Positions 1-6,978 of a DNA stretch of 64,000 bases are shown in pieces. Position 1 is the stretch's first letter. Every line of letters starts with the position of its first letter. The position numbers were made by a program, and so were the translations under genes. Origin of the DNA: Mycolicibacterium sarraceniae (lineage in GTDB: Bacteria > Actinomycetota > Actinomycetes > Mycobacteriales > Mycobacteriaceae); contig NZ_AP022595.1 of the NCBI RefSeq assembly GCF_010731875.1, positions 4,526,001-4,590,000 of the forward strand. The letters run 5' to 3'. Below the pieces are notes generated by a model. The model ran no database searches, was not told the DNA's origin, and saw only the letters and a program-made list of their open reading frames with translations.

Positions 1-311
1 ACCGGTGAGACCGCGAACGGCAGATCGATGACTGCCTGCAACGCCGCCTTACCGCGGAACTTGTTGCGGGCCAGTACCAGTGCCGTCGGTATCCCGAAGA
101 GCACATTGAGCGGTACCACGATCGCCACGACGATCAGCGACAGCTGCAGTGCGGAGATCGCGGCCGGCGTGGTGATGGACGCGACGAACTCGCCGAATCC
201 AGGAGCAAAGGTACGCCACAGGATCAGGCCGACCGGCACGATCACCAGTACCGCGACGTACGCCAACGCAACGTAGCGGACGAGGTAGCGCACCGCGGGA
301 GACAGATTCAC
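1..311 (-). CDS. cysW: Sulfate ABC transporter permease CysW (3' end beyond window)
   Basis: N-terminal part of the second membrane subunit of the sulfate/thiosulfate importer. The visible ~103 residues begin VNLSPAVRYL and hold two hydrophobic segments (about residues 10-30 and 55-80), followed by a LARNKFRGK stretch and a DLPFAVSP motif parallel to the DLPFALPT motif of CysT upstream. The start is GTG at 309-311, which overlaps the cysT stop as GTGA, so translation is coupled. The ATPase gene cysA is expected just outside the window. The family call is firm; the length cannot be judged. Confidence 0.9.
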   Translation of the reverse strand, partial: MNLSPAVRYLVRYVALAYVAVLVIVPVGLILWRTFAPGFGEFVASITTPAAISALQLSLIVVAIVVPLNVLFGIPTALVLARNKFRGKAALQAVIDLPFAVSP

Positions 312-1189
312 GTCGCCAGCTCCTCCCGCTTCGCCGCGCGCGAACCGATGGTCCGCAGCACCAGCAGCACGACGAACGAGAGCACCAGCAGCACAATGGA
401 AATGGCCGCCGCACCGGTCCGGTCGTCATTCTCGATCAACGTCCGGATCCACTGCGAGGACACCTCGGTCTCCCCTGGCACCGCACCGCCGATCAGCACC
501 ACTGAACCGAATTCCCCGATCGCGCGCGAGAACGCCAGCCCCGCACCGGACAGCAGCGAAGGCAGCAACGCCGGCAGGATCACCTTCGTGAAGATGACGA
601 AGTTGGTCGCCCCCAGCGAGGCGGCGGCCTGCTCGACCTCATGGTCGAGTTCGAGCAGGACCGGCTGGACGGAACGCACCACGAACGGCAGCGTGACGAA
701 TAGAAGTGCCACGCCGACACCCCATTTGGTGTGCTGGAGATGTAGATCGATCGGGCTGTTGGGCCCGTAGAGAGCCAGCATGACCAGGCTCGCCACGATG
801 GTGGGCAACGCGAAAGGCAGGTCGATCACCGCATCGACCAACCGTTTGCCCGGGAAGTCGTCTCGGGTCAATACCCAGGCGACGAGCAGTCCGAACACCG
901 CATTGATCAGCGTGACCCCGATCGAGATCGTCAGCGTCACTCGAAAAGATTCCAGGGCGGCGTTCGAGCTGATCGTCAGCCAGAACGCGTGCCATCCCCC
1001 CTTAGCCGACTGCCACACGATCGCGGCAAGCGGCAAAAGGACGATCACACTCAACCAGATCGACGCTGCCCCAACGCGCAAGCTCGTCGTGCCATGCCGG
1101 CGGCCGACGCGGGACGGCCCGCCCGAGCCCCCGTTCGGGGTGAGCTCGGGCCGGACCGCCTGCGGGTTTGGCGTGGTAGCTGCTGTCAT
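308..1189 (-). CDS. cysT: Sulfate ABC transporter permease CysT
   Basis: Inner-membrane permease of 293 aa that pairs with CysW to move sulfate or thiosulfate into the cytoplasm. After a hydrophilic N-terminus of ~35 residues there are about six membrane segments and the permease EAA-type loop, seen as EQAAASLGATNFVIFTKVILP (in part) followed by a SRAIGEFGSVVLIGG motif typical of CysT/CysW. It ends in GTGA overlap with cysW and begins in ATGA overlap with subI. The ATG start at 1189 is set by that overlap. It is equivalent to Rv2399c. Confidence 0.93.
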   Translation of the reverse strand: MTAATTPNPQAVRPELTPNGGSGGPSRVGRRHGTTSLRVGAASIWLSVIVLLPLAAIVWQSAKGGWHAFWLTISSNAALESFRVTLTISIGVTLINAVFGLLVAWVLTRDDFPGKRLVDAVIDLPFALPTIVASLVMLALYGPNSPIDLHLQHTKWGVGVALLFVTLPFVVRSVQPVLLELDHEVEQAAASLGATNFVIFTKVILPALLPSLLSGAGLAFSRAIGEFGSVVLIGGAVPGETEVSSQWIRTLIENDDRTGAAAISIVLLVLSFVVLLVLRTIGSRAAKREELAT

Positions 1190-2226
1190 CCAGTGGCCTG
1201 CTTGTAGATCTTGGTGATGGAGCCATTGTCCTTATCGAACAGCGCCGGATCCACCTTGCTCCAGCCACCGAGGTCAGCGATTGTCCAGAGCTTCTGCGGG
1301 GCCGGGAAGTCGGTAGCGAAATCAGCGGCAACCGCGGGATCGACCGGACGGAATCCGGCCTGGGCCCAGAGCTTCTGCCCTTCCGGGGTGTACAGGAAGT
1401 TGTTCAGCGCGGTCGCCTTGTCGACGTGGGCACCGGTGGTCACCACCGCGACGGGGTTCTCGATCTTGAACGTCTGCGGCGGGTTGATGTGCTCGACCGG
1501 CTTGCCCTGACGCTCGGTGTTGATCGCCTCGTTCTCGTAGCTGATCAGAACGTCACCGGTGCCCTGCAGGAACACGTCGGTGGCCTCCCGGCCGGAGCCC
1601 GGGCGGGTCTTGACGTGATCCTTGACCAGCTTGGCGACGAAGTCCAGACCAGCCGCGTCGTCCTGACCACCGTTGCTCTTGGCGGCGTAGGGAGCCAACA
1701 GATTCCACTTGGCCGAGCCGGAGCTCAGCGGACTCGGGGTGACAACCTCGAGGCCCGGCTGCAGCAGGTCGTCCCAGTCCTTGATGTTCTTCGGGTTGCC
1801 CTTACGAACAACCAGAGAAACAACCGAACCGAACGGGATGCCCTTGGTGGTGGACTTGTTCCAATCAGCGGAGACCTTGTTCGCCTTCACCAGGCGGGTG
1901 ACGTCCGGCTCGACCGAGAAATTGACGATATCGGCCGGCTTGCCGTCAACCACGCCGCGGGACTGGTCACCGGAGGCACCGTAAGACGTCGTCACCGCGA
2001 TACCTTTGCCCTCCGGGGTCGCCGCGAAAGCCGGGATGATCTTGCTCCAGCCGGGCTCCGGCACCGCGTAGGCGACCAAAGTCAGGGTGGTGTCAGCCTT
2101 GGGCTGGCTGCTCCCGCCGGCGACGTCGCTAGAACCACCGCCGCCACAGGCGGCAAGCACCGTTGCGGTCGTCGCGAGCGCGACAGCTGTGCTCCACCGT
2201 CGTACGGGGGCGTGAATCTTGGGCAT
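1186..2226 (-). CDS. subI: Sulfate-binding lipoprotein SubI
   Basis: Periplasmic-side substrate-binding lipoprotein of the sulfate importer, 346 aa. A signal peptide ends in the lipobox LAAC (Cys ~27), followed by a Gly/Ser linker and the mature solute-binding fold. The motifs LVAYAVPEPG near the N-terminus and SYGASGDQSRGV fit the CysP/Sbp family, where such loops contact the sulfate oxyanion. It is the first large gene of the subI-cysT-cysW operon; a GAAAGG ribosome binding site lies 7-12 nt before the ATG. Upstream small ORFs probably control the operon (see the leader ORF at 2344-2436). Confidence 0.93.
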   Translation of the reverse strand: MPKIHAPVRRWSTAVALATTATVLAACGGGGSSDVAGGSSQPKADTTLTLVAYAVPEPGWSKIIPAFAATPEGKGIAVTTSYGASGDQSRGVVDGKPADIVNFSVEPDVTRLVKANKVSADWNKSTTKGIPFGSVVSLVVRKGNPKNIKDWDDLLQPGLEVVTPSPLSSGSAKWNLLAPYAAKSNGGQDDAAGLDFVAKLVKDHVKTRPGSGREATDVFLQGTGDVLISYENEAINTERQGKPVEHINPPQTFKIENPVAVVTTGAHVDKATALNNFLYTPEGQKLWAQAGFRPVDPAVAADFATDFPAPQKLWTIADLGGWSKVDPALFDKDNGSITKIYKQATG

Positions 2227-2238
2227 TGCTGGCCTTTC

Positions 2239-2310
2239 TCATTGCGGGTTAGGGGAATAGAGCCCCGTCGCAACGGAATGGCGATGCTGACAACGAATGC
2301 CAACGAACAT
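2239..2310 (-). CDS. Possible 23-aa upstream ORF directly before subI
   Basis: A 23-codon frame (MFVGIRCQHR at its start, SPNPQ at its end) whose TGA at 2239-2241 lies 12 nt before the subI ATG and touches the subI ribosome binding region as ATGAGAAAGG. It has one Cys and two His codons. It could couple translation to subI or be chance; no ribosome binding site is obvious for it. It is reported only because it lies between the leader ORF and subI. Confidence 0.22.
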   Translation of the reverse strand: MFVGIRCQHRHSVATGLYSPNPQ

Positions 2311-2343
2311 CACCGACACCAGACCGAGGACGGGCAGAGGGTG

Positions 2344-2436
2344 TCAGCGACAACAAGCAACATCAGCAACGGCCAACGCGCCGACGGCAATTAGGGCCAA
2401 GATATGGCCCTTGCCGTACGGGGTGGCAGGTTGCAT
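2344..2436 (-). CDS. Leaderless 30-aa leader ORF with tandem Cys codons, upstream of subI
   Basis: A 30-codon ORF starting MQPATPYGKG and ending VACCR-stop, with two adjacent TGT codons immediately before the last sense codon. A TANNNT hexamer (TAAGCT, 2444-2449) sits exactly 7 nt before the ATG, so the transcript would begin at the A of the start codon. Work in M. smegmatis, as I recall it, describes leaderless short ORFs with consecutive cysteine codons acting as cysteine-responsive attenuators before sulfur-assimilation operons, one of them before the sulfate importer. Position, start architecture and Cys-Cys end all fit that model. Only two Cys codons are present, so response strength is uncertain. 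Confidence 0.55.
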   Translation of the reverse strand: MQPATPYGKGHILALIAVGALAVADVACCR

Positions 2437-2443
2437 GGCGCGA

Positions 2444-2449
2444 AGCTTA
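2444..2449 (-). promoter_or_regulatory. -10 element (TAAGCT) for leaderless sulfate operon transcript
   Basis: TAAGCT fits the mycobacterial TANNNT -10 and is separated by 7 nt from the ATG at 2436. A CTGACA-like hexamer is too close (9 nt) to be a normal -35. This is the likely promoter of the leader ORF plus subI-cysT-cysW. Confidence 0.55.
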
Positions 2450-2480
2450 ACAGAGATCTGTCAGGCGACCAGTCCGGGTA

Positions 2481-2567
2481 TCAGCGGTTGATCAGCCACA
2501 CAACGATCACCAAGATCAGCAGCGCCACCAGGGCCAGCGTCACCCGGGATCGCGGCATCCCACTCAT
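2481..2567 (-). CDS. 28-aa single-span membrane miniprotein
   Basis: A short ORF, MSGMPRSRVT followed by about 14 hydrophobic residues (Leu/Val/Ala/Ile) and ending VWLINR. This is a positively charged N-terminus plus one membrane span, ending in a basic residue. Its ATG at 2565-2567 overlaps the TGA of the 64-aa membrane protein gene as ATGA, the same junction used by true operon neighbours in this window, which argues that it is translated. Function unknown. A role as a small regulatory partner of the adjacent membrane protein or of the sulfate importer is speculation. Confidence 0.5.
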   Translation of the reverse strand: MSGMPRSRVTLALVALLILVIVVWLINR

Positions 2568-2758
2568 CGGAGCCGCCGCTCAGCGAGGCGCAGGCACCGT
2601 AATACCCGGATGCTGTTGCGCAGAATCACGTCGATCACCCATGCGATGCCGTAGGCGAGCATTAAAACCACGGGTATCACAATGATCGTCTGGAGGACGA
2701 AACCGAGCCCGGACAACCAGAGTTCGACGCCGTCCCACCAACTCAACAACCCCTGCAC
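2564..2758 (-). CDS. Small conserved membrane protein (Rv2401A-like)
   Basis: A 64-aa protein starting at GTG 2758 (VQGLLSWWDG) with an amphipathic N-terminus, one long membrane segment (about residues 16-42, rich in Ile/Val/Leu) and a strongly basic end (RVLRCLRLAERRLR). An upstream ATG would give 101 aa, but the extra residues look non-coding and the GTG matches the size of the small membrane protein found at this site in M. tuberculosis. It lies head to head with the trehalase gene and overlaps the 28-aa ORF. Function unknown. Confidence 0.6.
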   Translation of the reverse strand: MQGLLSWWDGVELWLSGLGFVLQTIIVIPVVLMLAYGIAWVIDVILRNSIRVLRCLRLAERRLR

Positions 2759-2868
2759 GGCACCAGCGTATGCCGCGCCCCGCGCTGCGTCGTGACCGGT
2801 GGTAACAGCAAAGGCACGGATCGGTGCATAAGTAGACGGCACAAGGCAATCCGGTCGATGATGTCCCA

Positions 2869-4884
2869 ATGGTTCTGCAAGCCCAGCCGACCGGCGAGGA
2901 CACTGATGCTGTGGCCCTCAACCCAGCCCCGCCGCCGCTGTCCGTAACCGCCCCGGTGCCGTATCCCTCGCCTGCCGCGTTGCGCAACCCGTTCCCGCCG
3001 ATCGCCGATTACGCCTTCTTGTCCGACTGCGAGAACACCTGCCTGATCTCATCAGCCGGTGCGCTGGAGTGGCTGTGCGTTCCGCGACCGGACTCCCCCA
3101 GCGTTTTCGGGGCGGTCCTGGACCGTGGTGCCGGCCATTTCCGGTTGGGCCCGTACGGCGTCTCGGTTCCGGCCGCGCGCCGCTACCTGCCTGGCAGTCT
3201 CATTCTGGAGACCACGTGGCAGACCCACACCGGGTGGCTGATCGTGCGGGATGCCCTGGTCATGGGCCCGTGGCACGATATTGAACACCGATCCAGAACG
3301 CACCGGCGCACCCCAATGGACTGGGATGCCGAGCACATCCTGCTGCGCACTGTGCGCTGTGTGAGCGGCACGGTGGAGCTGGTGATGAACTGCGAGCCGT
3401 CGTTTGACTACGCGCGCGTCAACGCGAACTGGGAGTACTCGGCCAACGCCTACGGCGAAGCGATCGCCCGGGCCAGGAAGGACCCCGACGCCCATCCCAC
3501 GCTGCGGCTGACGACGAACCTGCGGATCGGGCTAGAGGGCCGCGAAGCGCGCGCCCGCACCCGCCTCAAAGAGGGTGACAATGTGTTCGTCGCGCTGTCG
3601 TGGTCGAAGCATCCATCGCCGCAGACCTATGAAGAAGCCGCCGACAAGATGTGGCAGACCAGCGAGGCCTGGCGGCAGTGGATCAACATCGGCGACTTCC
3701 CCGACCACCCGTGGCGTTCCTATCTACAGCGCAGTGCGCTCACGCTCAAGGGTTTGACGTATTCGCCGACCGGTGCCCTGCTGGCCGCCAGCACGACATC
3801 GCTGCCGGAAACGCCGCAGGGTGAACGCAACTGGGATTATCGCTACGCATGGGTGCGTGATTCGACGTTCGCATTGTGGGGTCTCTACACCCTGGGCCTG
3901 GATCGCGAGGCCGACGACTTCTTCTCCTTCATCGCCGACGTATCCGGTGCCAACAACGGCGAGCGTCATCCTCTTCAGGTGATGTACGGCGTCGGCGGCG
4001 AGCGCGAGTTGGTCGAGGAAGAACTCAACCACCTGTCCGGGTACGACAACGCCCGCCCGGTCCGGATCGGCAACGGGGCCTACAACCAGATGCAGCACGA
4101 TATCTGGGGCACCATGCTCGACTCGGTGTACCTGCACGCAAAGTCGCGCGAGCAGATCTCCGATCAGTTGTGGCCGGTACTCAAGGAGCAGGTGGAAGAG
4201 GCCATCAAGCATTGGAAGGAACCCGACCGCGGTATCTGGGAAGTGCGCGGCGAGCCGCAGCACTTCACCTCGTCGAAGGTCATGTGCTGGGTCGCGCTGG
4301 ATCGGGGCTCCAAGCTGGCCGAGCTGGTCGGCGAGAAGAGCTACGCCCAGCAGTGGCGGGCGATCGCCGAGGAGATCAAGGCCGATATCCTGGCCAACGG
4401 CGTGGACAAGCGCGGGGTGTTGACCCAGCGCTACGGGGACGACGCGCTGGATGCGTCACTGCTGCTGGTCCCGCTCGTGCGGTTCCTGCCGTCGGACGAC
4501 CCGCGGGTGCGGGCCACGGTGCTGGCGATCGCCGACGAGCTCACCGAGGACGGTCTGGTACTGCGGTATCGCGTCCACGAGACCGACGACGGCCTGTCCG
4601 GTGAAGAGGGCAGCTTCACGATCTGCTCGTTTTGGCTGGTGTCGGCGCTGGTCGAGATCGGCGAGGTGAGCCGAGCCCGGCACCTGTGCGAGCGGCTGCT
4701 GTCCTTTGCCAGCCCGCTGCATCTCTACGCCGAGGAGATCGAGCCGCGTACTGGCCGCCATCTGGGCAACTTCCCGCAGGCGTTCACCCATCTGGCCCTG
4801 ATCAATGCCGTGGTGCACGTCATCCGGGCCGAAGAGGAAGCCGACAGCACAGGCGTGTTCCAGCCCGCGAACGCGCCGATGTAG
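2869..4884 (+). CDS. treH: GH15-family trehalase
   Basis: Cytosolic hydrolase of 671 aa splitting trehalose into two glucose units; the mycobacterial orthologue (Rv2402 type) is a glucoamylase-fold GH15 enzyme rather than a GH37 trehalase. An N-terminal beta-sandwich (about residues 45-270) opens with DYAFLSDCENTCL and WLCVPRPDSPSVFG. The (alpha/alpha)6 barrel follows, with RNWDYRYAWVRDS (~315-327), a catalytic-acid region DRGIWEVRGEPQHF and a second acid near EEGSFTICSFW. ATG 2869 is used; a stretch rich in Pro follows it, so a slightly later start is possible. It is divergent from the small membrane genes. Confidence 0.9.
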   Translation: MVLQAQPTGEDTDAVALNPAPPPLSVTAPVPYPSPAALRNPFPPIADYAFLSDCENTCLISSAGALEWLCVPRPDSPSVFGAVLDRGAGHFRLGPYGVSVPAARRYLPGSLILETTWQTHTGWLIVRDALVMGPWHDIEHRSRTHRRTPMDWDAEHILLRTVRCVSGTVELVMNCEPSFDYARVNANWEYSANAYGEAIARARKDPDAHPTLRLTTNLRIGLEGREARARTRLKEGDNVFVALSWSKHPSPQTYEEAADKMWQTSEAWRQWINIGDFPDHPWRSYLQRSALTLKGLTYSPTGALLAASTTSLPETPQGERNWDYRYAWVRDSTFALWGLYTLGLDREADDFFSFIADVSGANNGERHPLQVMYGVGGERELVEEELNHLSGYDNARPVRIGNGAYNQMQHDIWGTMLDSVYLHAKSREQISDQLWPVLKEQVEEAIKHWKEPDRGIWEVRGEPQHFTSSKVMCWVALDRGSKLAELVGEKSYAQQWRAIAEEIKADILANGVDKRGVLTQRYGDDALDASLLLVPLVRFLPSDDPRVRATVLAIADELTEDGLVLRYRVHETDDGLSGEEGSFTICSFWLVSALVEIGEVSRARHLCERLLSFASPLHLYAEEIEPRTGRHLGNFPQAFTHLALINAVVHVIRAEEEADSTGVFQPANAPM

Positions 4885-4896
4885 GCGGAGGCCTAC
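4881..4896. terminator. Short hairpin overlapping the treH stop; rest of gap to lepA empty
   Basis: GTAGGC and GCCTAC flank a GGAG loop across the trehalase stop codon. There is no T-run after the stem on either strand, so it would be a weak or non-canonical terminator. The remaining bases up to 5112 separate convergent treH and lepA and hold only short GC-rich palindromes; I see no gene there. Confidence 0.3.
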
Positions 4897-5112
4897 AAAA
4901 AGGCAGAGGTAGCTAGGCCAACCGGTCGGCCGCCAGCGCCGGTTCGACACGCTGTAGTAGCACCGTGGCGGCCGCAGCGGCTTGCCTATCGTCCCTGGCG
5001 GCTTTCGGGCCAGTTCCTCGGCAGACTCGCACCCGCCCACAGCGGATCACGGACGATAGCGTCCCTCAGCTGGCAGGTTGGGGTACTCCAACCGCCGTCA
5101 CAACAGACGAGC

Positions 5113-6978
5113 CTATTTCTTGGCCTTGTCGCCGGTCTTCTCGCCACCGCCGTCGGTGGAGAGCGCGGCGACGAACGCCTCCTGGGGCACTTCAACCCGC
5201 CCGATCGTCTTCATCCGCTTCTTGCCCTCTTTCTGCTTTTCCAGCAGTTTGCGCTTACGCGTGATGTCACCGCCGTAGCACTTTGCGAGCACGTCCTTGC
5301 GGATCGCCCGGATGTTCTCGCGGGCAATGATTTTCGCTCCGATAGCAGCCTGCACCGGCACCTCGAACTGCTGGCGCGGGATGAGTTCCTTGAGCTTGGT
5401 GGTCATCTTGTTGCCGTAGGCCTGTGCCGAATCCTTGTGCACGATCGCGCTGAAGGCGTCGACGGCCTCACCCTGTAACAGGATGTCCACCTTAACCAAC
5501 GCGGCCTCCTGCTCGCCGGACTCTTCGTAGTCCAGGCTCGCGTAGCCGCGGGTGCGCGATTTCAGCGAATCGAAGAAATCGAAGATGATCTCGCCCAGCG
5601 GCATGGTGTAGCGCAGTTCGACCCGTTCGGGAGACAGGTAGTCCATACCGCCGAGTTCGCCGCGGCGGGACTGACACAGCTCCATGATCGTGCCGATGAA
5701 CTCACTCGGCGAGATGATGGTGGTCTTCACCACCGGCTCGTAGACCTCGCGGACTTTACCTTCGGGCCAGTCCGATGGGTTGGTCACAATCAGCTCGCTG
5801 CCATCATCCTTGATCACCCGGTACACCACGTTGGGTGACGTGGAGATCAGGTCGAGGTCGAACTCCCGCTCGAGGCGTTCGCGGGTGATCTCCATGTGCA
5901 GCAGCCCCAGGAAACCGCACCGGAAGCCGAAGCCCAGCGCCACCGACGTCTCCGGTTCGTAGGTCAGAGCCGCGTCGTTGAGCTGTAGCTTGTCCAGAGC
6001 CTCGCGCAGATTCGGGTAGTCAGAGCCGTCGACCGGATACAGGCCCGAATAGACCATCGGCTTGGGTTCGCGATAACCCGTCAGTGCATCGGTGGCGCCG
6101 CGACGGGCGCTGGTGACGGTGTCACCAACCTTGGACTGGCGCACATCTTTCACACCGGTGATAAGGTAGCCGACCTCGCCGACGCCCAGCCCGTCGCTGG
6201 GTTTGGGGTCGGGCGAAACGATGCCAACCTCGAGCAGTTCGTGGGTGGCGCCGGTGGACATCATCTTGATCCGCTCACGCGGGTTGAGCTTGCCGTCCAC
6301 CACGCGGACGTACGTCACGACACCGCGGTAGATGTCGTAGACCGAGTCGAAGATCATCGCTCGCGCCGGAGCGTCGGCATCCCCGACCGGTGCGGGGATC
6401 AGTCGGACCACCTCATCGAGCAGCTCGGGCACGCCCACACCCGTCTTGCCGGACACCCGCAGCACATCATCGGGTTCGCAACCGATGATGTGGGCGATCT
6501 CGCCGGCGTAGCGATCGGGGTCGGCGGCGGGCAGGTCGATCTTGTTGAGCACGGGGATGATCGTCAGGTCCCGGTCCAGCGCGAGGTACAGGTTAGCCAG
6601 CGTCTGCGCCTCGATGCCCTGAGCGGCGTCGACCAGCAGCACGGCACCCTCGCAGGCCTCCAACGCACGCGACACCTCGTAGGTGAAGTCGACGTGGCCG
6701 GGGGTGTCGATCAGGTGTAGGACGTAATCCGTAGTGACCCCACCTGCTGTGACGCTCCAAGGCAGGCGCACGTTCTGCGCCTTGATCGTGATGCCGCGTT
6801 CGCGCTCGATGTCCATCCGGTCGAGATACTGGGCCCGCATATCGCGGTCGGCGACCACGCCGGTGATGCCGAGCATCCGGTCGGCCAGCGTGGACTTCCC
6901 ATGATCGATGTGAGCGATGATGCAGAAGTTCCGGATCTGCGCCGGCGCAGTGAAAGTCTTGTCGGCGAAGCTGCTGAT
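5113..6978 (-). CDS. lepA: Elongation factor 4 (LepA), probable AUC start
   Basis: Ribosome-dependent GTPase that back-translocates stalled ribosomes or assists assembly. G1 is AHIDHGKS, G2 region [13 protein letters not shown]3 DTPGHVDF, G4 NKIDLP; the EF4-specific C-terminal domain ends in [17 protein letters not shown] and a Lys-rich tail. No ATG/GTG occurs shortly before the conserved [11 protein letters not shown] start. A strong AGGAGAAA lies 5-8 nt before an in-frame ATC at 6976-6978, giving 621 aa, close to the usual ~600. In-frame alternatives are a TTG at about 7057 and a distant ATG at 7308, which would run through the opposite-strand gene at 7103. Downstream starts would delete G1. 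Confidence 0.9.

Follow-up and report, generated by a model that had tools for sequence, protein, structure and literature searches.

A conserved Ms4533A-family leader ORF upstream of subI in Mycolicibacterium sarraceniae, a probable cysteine attenuator of sulfate import

A short ORF ahead of the sulfate-import genes

What lies upstream of the sulfate-import genes in the 64,000-nt stretch of Mycolicibacterium sarraceniae DNA analyzed here (the window)? All of the window features described below are on the minus strand. Two genes of the operon were identified with curated protein models: subI, encoding the substrate-binding protein of a sulfate ABC transporter (1186..2226; TIGR00971, 172.6 bits against a cutoff of 155.5), and cysT, encoding a sulfate permease subunit (308..1189; TIGR02139, 271.9 bits against a cutoff of 246.1). 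The frame that follows cysT runs past the window edge and is known from its translation alone, so it is called cysW by position and appearance.

Ahead of subI is a 30-codon ORF, MQPATPYGKGHILALIAVGALAVADVACCR (2344..2436), supported by an ORF call and by a match to the Ms4533A family (see below). A −10 element, TAAGCT (2444..2449), stands 7 nt (2443..2437) before its ATG at 2436, and this sequence, together with its conserved spacing to the start codon, predicts a leaderless promoter. The ORF closes with TGT TGT CGC TGA, its last base at 2344, and another 117 nt separate it from the subI ATG at 2226. The two Cys codons (codons 28 and 29; 2350..2355) are consecutive and near the ORF end, which together with their conservation marks them as the putative sensor; two is the minimum for a polycysteine attenuator. 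The anatomy given in the initial annotation—element, spacing, start, length, terminal codons, and distance to subI—is reproduced exactly when the minus strand is read.

Could such an ORF have arisen by chance? We scanned the window for TANNNT followed after 5 to 8 nt by ATG or GTG and an ORF of 5 to 60 amino acids; eight were found, one of which—this leader—contains Cys-Cys. Windows simulated under a first-order Markov model (n = 40) held on average 0.05 such ORFs with Cys-Cys in the last five residues and 0.475 with Cys-Cys anywhere. A chance ORF is ruled out by this window-wide count, the family match, and the conservation described below. A separate 28-residue ORF, MSGMPRSRVTLALVALLILVIVVWLINR (2481–2567), which has a single hydrophobic helix and no match in NCBIfam, stops 44 nt before the leader start.

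Family membership and conservation upstream of subI

The leader matches NCBIfam NF042937.1, the equivalog model "Ms4533A family Cys-rich leader peptide," at 42.7 bits against a curated cutoff of 31, with its residues 11–29 aligned to positions 12–30 of the 30-position profile. Because the profile is matched only from position 12 on, the N terminus of the leader is divergent from the model. The family name refers to M. smegmatis MSMEG_4533, and Ms4533A stands upstream of a sulfate-binding protein gene; the present leader shares that setting, 117 nt before subI, and differs from the family in having only two Cys codons and in its divergent N terminus. A score above the curated cutoff places the leader in the published class of mycobacterial leaderless cysteine attenuators. 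As judged from its sequence, the leader is genuine and conserved, belongs to a family that already has a name, and is essentially known.

How widespread is the family? The leader is the sole NF042937 match in its genome at E ≤ 0.001. Of 198 genomes in the genus, 115 have a match above the cutoff (124 at E ≤ 1e-3); of 401 genomes sampled at the family rank, 195 do (209 at E ≤ 1e-3), and 20 of 31 genera are represented among the matches. All 14 control genomes were negative. A genome without a match does not equate to a genome without a leader, because 18-residue forms lack most of the modelled core. Two family matches were present in 11 of the 14 listed matching genomes of the genus labelled g10 (e.g., those of loci L154 and L165), about 1.6 kb apart in the two pairs for which both coordinates are listed. 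Within the M. sarraceniae genome, TGYTGYCGNTRA has 86 hits (39 + 47) and the reversed control pattern 31. Four of the 86, this locus included, are exact TGTTGTCGCTGA sites; inspection of the other three found no short leaderless ORF ending in Cys-Cys. Rfam had no match at E ≤ 1 in positions 1–6000 of the window.

Is the leader retained where subI is retained? A set of 110 subI loci (L001–L110, L001 being the window) was picked by SubI similarity with the leader disregarded, combining the 30 top matches from 198 genomes with the top 80 of 575 matches from named genomes; some loci are redundant, with records in both sets. A leader with a −10 element, a start codon, and at least two Cys codons was present in all 109 loci that hold upstream sequence, the remaining record (L050) beginning inside subI. 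A strict search recovered the leader in 104 of the 110. Beyond that search, it sits farther from the aligned part in L080 and L084, and Cys-X-Cys leaders, recognized by eye, replace adjacent Cys codons in L024 and L068 (one contig; Cys-Trp-Cys) and in L083 (Cys-Phe-Cys). Records L052, L053, and L068 are titled Acidobacteria or Bifidobacterium breve and carry mycobacterial-type subI loci; they are probably mislabelled metagenome bins.

Removing identical sequences from the 104 strict-search leaders left 91 distinct ones. They lie 104 to 138 nt from subI, and TANNNT precedes the start codon by 7 nt in 84 leaders and by 6 nt in the other 7, within a set preselected by a 6- to 8-nt criterion. Most are 30 residues long (66 leaders), 14 are 18 residues long, and 11 have other lengths. 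The shortest form seen (L055, 1355–1378 on the plus strand, upstream of subI) is the 7-codon MRTACCR, whose −10 element and Shine-Dalgarno (SD) sequence are of the same type as elsewhere. The C termini read CCR in 78, CCC in 9, CCL in 3, and CCH in 1; two Cys codons are found in 26 leaders, three in 43, four in 19, and five in 3. Among the loci listed, two Cys codons are common to most of the window's closest relatives by SubI identity, M. sphagni among them, and TGT TGT is retained in all close relatives in alignment A1. The loss of frame and Cys codons in close relatives that the initial annotation had put forward as evidence against its reading was not observed, and the comparison across mycobacteria that it had proposed found both the ATG distance and the Cys codons conserved. 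Farther upstream of the leader, a frame with a terminal motif of the W-[LIV]-x-N-[RSQK] type occurs in 26 of the 91 distinct loci; among 25 loci listed, the 14 that have it are the relatives L002–L009, L011–L013, L015, and L017 and the window.

Nucleotide- and peptide-level conservation

At what level is the leader conserved? The Cys-Cys pair is written TGTTGT in 89 of the 91 distinct leaders and TGTTGC in 2; TGC is nonetheless the commoner Cys codon in the window, at 131 of 180 in 38 long frames. Among the 66 thirty-residue leaders, the Cys-Cys amino acids are invariant and pS at these codons is 0.09, against 0.39–0.84 in the other blocks. The pN/pS ratio is 0.09 over ALIAVG (codons 14–19) and 0.04 over AVADV (codons 22–26), compared with 0.95 over codons 2–9, 0.30 over codons 10–13, 0.88 over codons 20–21, and 0.66 at codon 27; these leaders come from loci chosen by subI similarity. 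Because the leaders are related, the pair counts behind these ratios are not independent. Low pS at Cys-Cys shows that it is the nucleotides of the sensor codons that are kept, and low pN/pS in the core that it is the amino acids there. Thus, TGT TGT is under nucleotide-level conservation and ALIAVGxxAVADV under peptide-level conservation.

This split raises the question of whether the peptide itself acts, either through its core, ALIAVGxxAVAD[VI], as a nascent-chain signal that tunes pausing at Cys-Cys or as a small protein with a role of its own. The low pN/pS of the two core blocks relative to codons 2–9 and 20–21 speaks for such a role. A core resembling ALIAVGxx(A/T/S)VAD[IV]xCC also heads leaders in other genera of the family, 8 of 15 stretches around out-of-genus matches passing a filter for a −10 element, a start codon, and a terminal Cys and 7 failing it; these leaders were found by peptide similarity and so provide no independent test of the core. 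A separate block analysis was left out because its search pattern selects for the core. Against a peptide role, 14 of the 91 distinct leaders are 18-residue forms without the core and one is the 7-codon MRTACCR, which makes the core dispensable upstream of subI, and third-position changes between U and C could keep pairing with G, allowing an explanation at the RNA level. The literature searched, which lacked most subscription journals, showed no discussion of the core, which is weak evidence of absence. On balance, we consider an active peptide unlikely. Also improbable is a double sensor, in which the core would serve as a conditional arrest signal in the exit tunnel and amplify the pause at two frozen Cys codons. 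If true, it would account for two codons being enough in the clade resembling M. sphagni, and the core-less 18-residue and 7-codon forms would be a different, codon-only solution.

Predicted RNA switch and cysteine response

How might translation of the leader be coupled to subI? Four RNA elements can be placed between the end of the leader and the subI start. Element 1 (2340..2351) comprises the Cys-Arg-stop region and the bases after it; it is the predicted partner of element 2 in the minimum-free-energy fold of the window, with 76.1% of cells paired over the alignment. Element 2 (CGG...GGTGTCGGTGAT; 2309..2326), from folding and the alignment, is the predicted partner of either element 1 or element 3. 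Element 3 (2275..2283) is the anti-SD CGCCATTCC, the predicted partner of the SD in the window, and element 4 (2232..2239) is the subI SD, AGAAAGGC, assigned from the sequence. In all 91 distinct leaders, GAAAGG or GGAAGG lies no more than 18 nt from the start of subI, although such motifs (or AGAAAG) had guided the choice of start.

The leader RNA is predicted to fold better than shuffled sequences (z = −4.26; 0 of 200 shuffles reach it). The fold computed for the window pairs GGTGTCGGTGAT with the Cys-Arg-stop region and GCCATTC with the subI SD, the latter two in a hairpin. Across the 91 leaders, the mean unpaired probability of the SD hexamer is 0.192, compared with 0.423 when the spacers are shuffled; for the window it is 0.18. 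RNA structure is thus predicted to mask the subI ribosome-binding site.

Are the individual helices conserved? Helices 1:2 and 3:4 have 79.8% of alignment cells paired, against 35–50% when slid, and show no covariation beyond that of shuffles. RNAalifold gave the first indication of helix 2:3, in which 92.6% of cells are paired, compared with 50–78% when the helix is slid. Four of its pairs have two-sided changes (shuffled mean 1.5; 0 of 500 shuffles reach four), and its covariation score is reached by 5 of 500; slid controls, however, equal it in two-sided pairs (four at +1) and exceed it in cells with two-sided changes (up to 12, vs. 6). Support for helix 2:3 is modest, because slid controls match or exceed it and because the helix was partly derived from the same alignment. 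The anti-SD motif was counted in 82 of 91 leaders, against 16.9 expected, but it was chosen after the sequences had been seen, so that its count carries little weight; with an unguided complementarity test, 16.5% of leaders reached P ≤ 0.05, a weak result. Two other structures were set aside: a whole-leader consensus fold, which has negligible energy over the alignment, and a conserved hairpin in the HILAL codons, dropped by eye because the pairing codons vary in the codon table.

We modelled a stalled ribosome by blocking 33 nt around Cys-Cys as its footprint. Accessibility of the SD hexamer rose by more than 0.1 in 30 of the 91 leaders, fell in 2, and stayed within 0.1 in 59; in shuffled controls (n = 546), 13.9% rose and 9.2% fell. 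With the footprint set further upstream, it rose in 3 of 76. Mean SD access was 0.277 under the stall and 0.240 with a ribosome at the stop codon. The mean maximum pair probability of helix 1:2 is 0.67 in the free RNA and nil in the stalled RNA, the latter by construction of the footprint. The stall brings that of helix 2:3 up from 0.05 to 0.26, with a gain of more than 0.2 in 28 of the 91 leaders and a loss in 1; for helix 3:4 the value drops from 0.58 to 0.41, decreasing in 22 leaders and increasing in none. In the window, the SD hexamer moves from 0.18 to 0.22 and helix 3:4 from 1.00 to 0.95, while helix 2:3 stays at zero; a wider stretch spanning the SD and start and including 40 nt of subI goes from 0.17 to 0.39, compared with 0.31 for a ribosome at the stop codon. 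Equilibrium folding takes no account of folding during transcription, when element 3 emerges ahead of element 4 and element 2 could capture it.

These values suggest that the switch may be weaker in the two-Cys leader of the window. The initial annotation had suggested that two Cys codons might mark a weak or divergent version: the count is correct, and weakness is possible given the small modelled relief of the SD, but with two codons in 26 of the 91 distinct leaders the form is not divergent. Might two codons pause the ribosome too little, so that the leader is translated without useful sensing of cysteine and only couples translation? Both the weak modelled switch in the window and the three to five Cys codons of 65 of the 91 leaders point that way; the frequency of two-Cys leaders and the retention of TGT TGT in all close relatives (alignment A1) argue otherwise, and we regard mere coupling as very unlikely.

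The preferred reading, to which we assign a probability of about 0.85, is that the leader acts in cis as a ribosome-mediated cysteine attenuator of the sulfate-import operon subI-cysT(-cysW). Transcription would start at the A of the ATG, and the resulting mRNA would be leaderless, its short ORF being loaded by 70S ribosomes. Given ample charged Cys-tRNA, the ribosome would pass Cys-Cys-Arg-stop and leave, element 1 would pair with element 2 and the anti-SD (element 3) with the subI SD (element 4), and subI translation would be low. When Cys-tRNA is short, a ribosome stalled on the two TGT codons would cover element 1, and element 2, thus freed, would pair with element 3 and release the SD. 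By analogy, the leader most likely raises importer production when cysteine is short; the pairings are predictions from modelling. The initial annotation's leaderless-cysteine-attenuator mechanism, which fits the curated family match, the conservation in 109 of 109 loci, the frozen Cys-Cys codons, and the predicted SD sequestration, is in outline very probably right.

Canestrari reportedly described in 2020 polycysteine leaderless ORFs at six loci of M. smegmatis, in which stalled ribosomes are said to prevent an RBS-masking structure. That account is backed by citing passages in PMC9094748, PMC13236596, and PMC9031893. Contiguous-Cys leaderless ORFs of M. smegmatis regulate downstream translation by attenuation (PMC9031893), and six cysteine-responsive ORFs are predicted in M. 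tuberculosis (PMC9094748). The M. smegmatis attenuators, like the present leader, combine a short ORF, a leaderless-type start, contiguous Cys codons, and a sulfur-metabolism operon. RBS masking, reportedly a feature of the M. smegmatis attenuators, is a prediction here, and the cysteine response in M. sarraceniae is inferred from the published class.

Does the leader act on translation or on transcription? The ribosome's position could instead decide whether polymerase or Rho ends transcription in the 117-nt spacer. PMC8632094 describes a precedent in Rhodobacterales, the uORFC-8-2 motif before cysS, which like the present leader has a uORF with two tandem Cys codons and works by ribosome-mediated attenuation; it differs in phylum and gene and in having an intrinsic terminator with a U-run. 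A scan of positions 1–3000 found no such terminator between the leader ORF and subI, and the lone terminator-like site in that range, where 2.5 are expected by chance, sits inside the leader ORF. The strong leader fold relative to shuffles (z above) would suit transcription attenuation, and termination that depends on Rho or lacks a U-tract is compatible with the sequence, but a conserved feature of the spacer is the anti-SD. We consider it rather unlikely that the leader acts mainly in this way, and translational control is the likelier mode.

To the known class, the present analysis adds a series of leader sizes and Cys counts, a distinction between selection on nucleotides and selection on the peptide, and a switch model with four explicit elements. 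It also extends predicted cysteine attenuation of sulfate import to M. sarraceniae, and no leader found has fewer Cys codons than the one in this species. Minimal requirements could be defined with the natural leaders collected (7, 18, 30, and up to 34 codons; 2 to 5 Cys; Cys-X-Cys), which form a ready set, and the split between selection on TGT TGT as nucleotides and on ALIAVGxxAVADV as protein makes a possible role of the nascent peptide testable.
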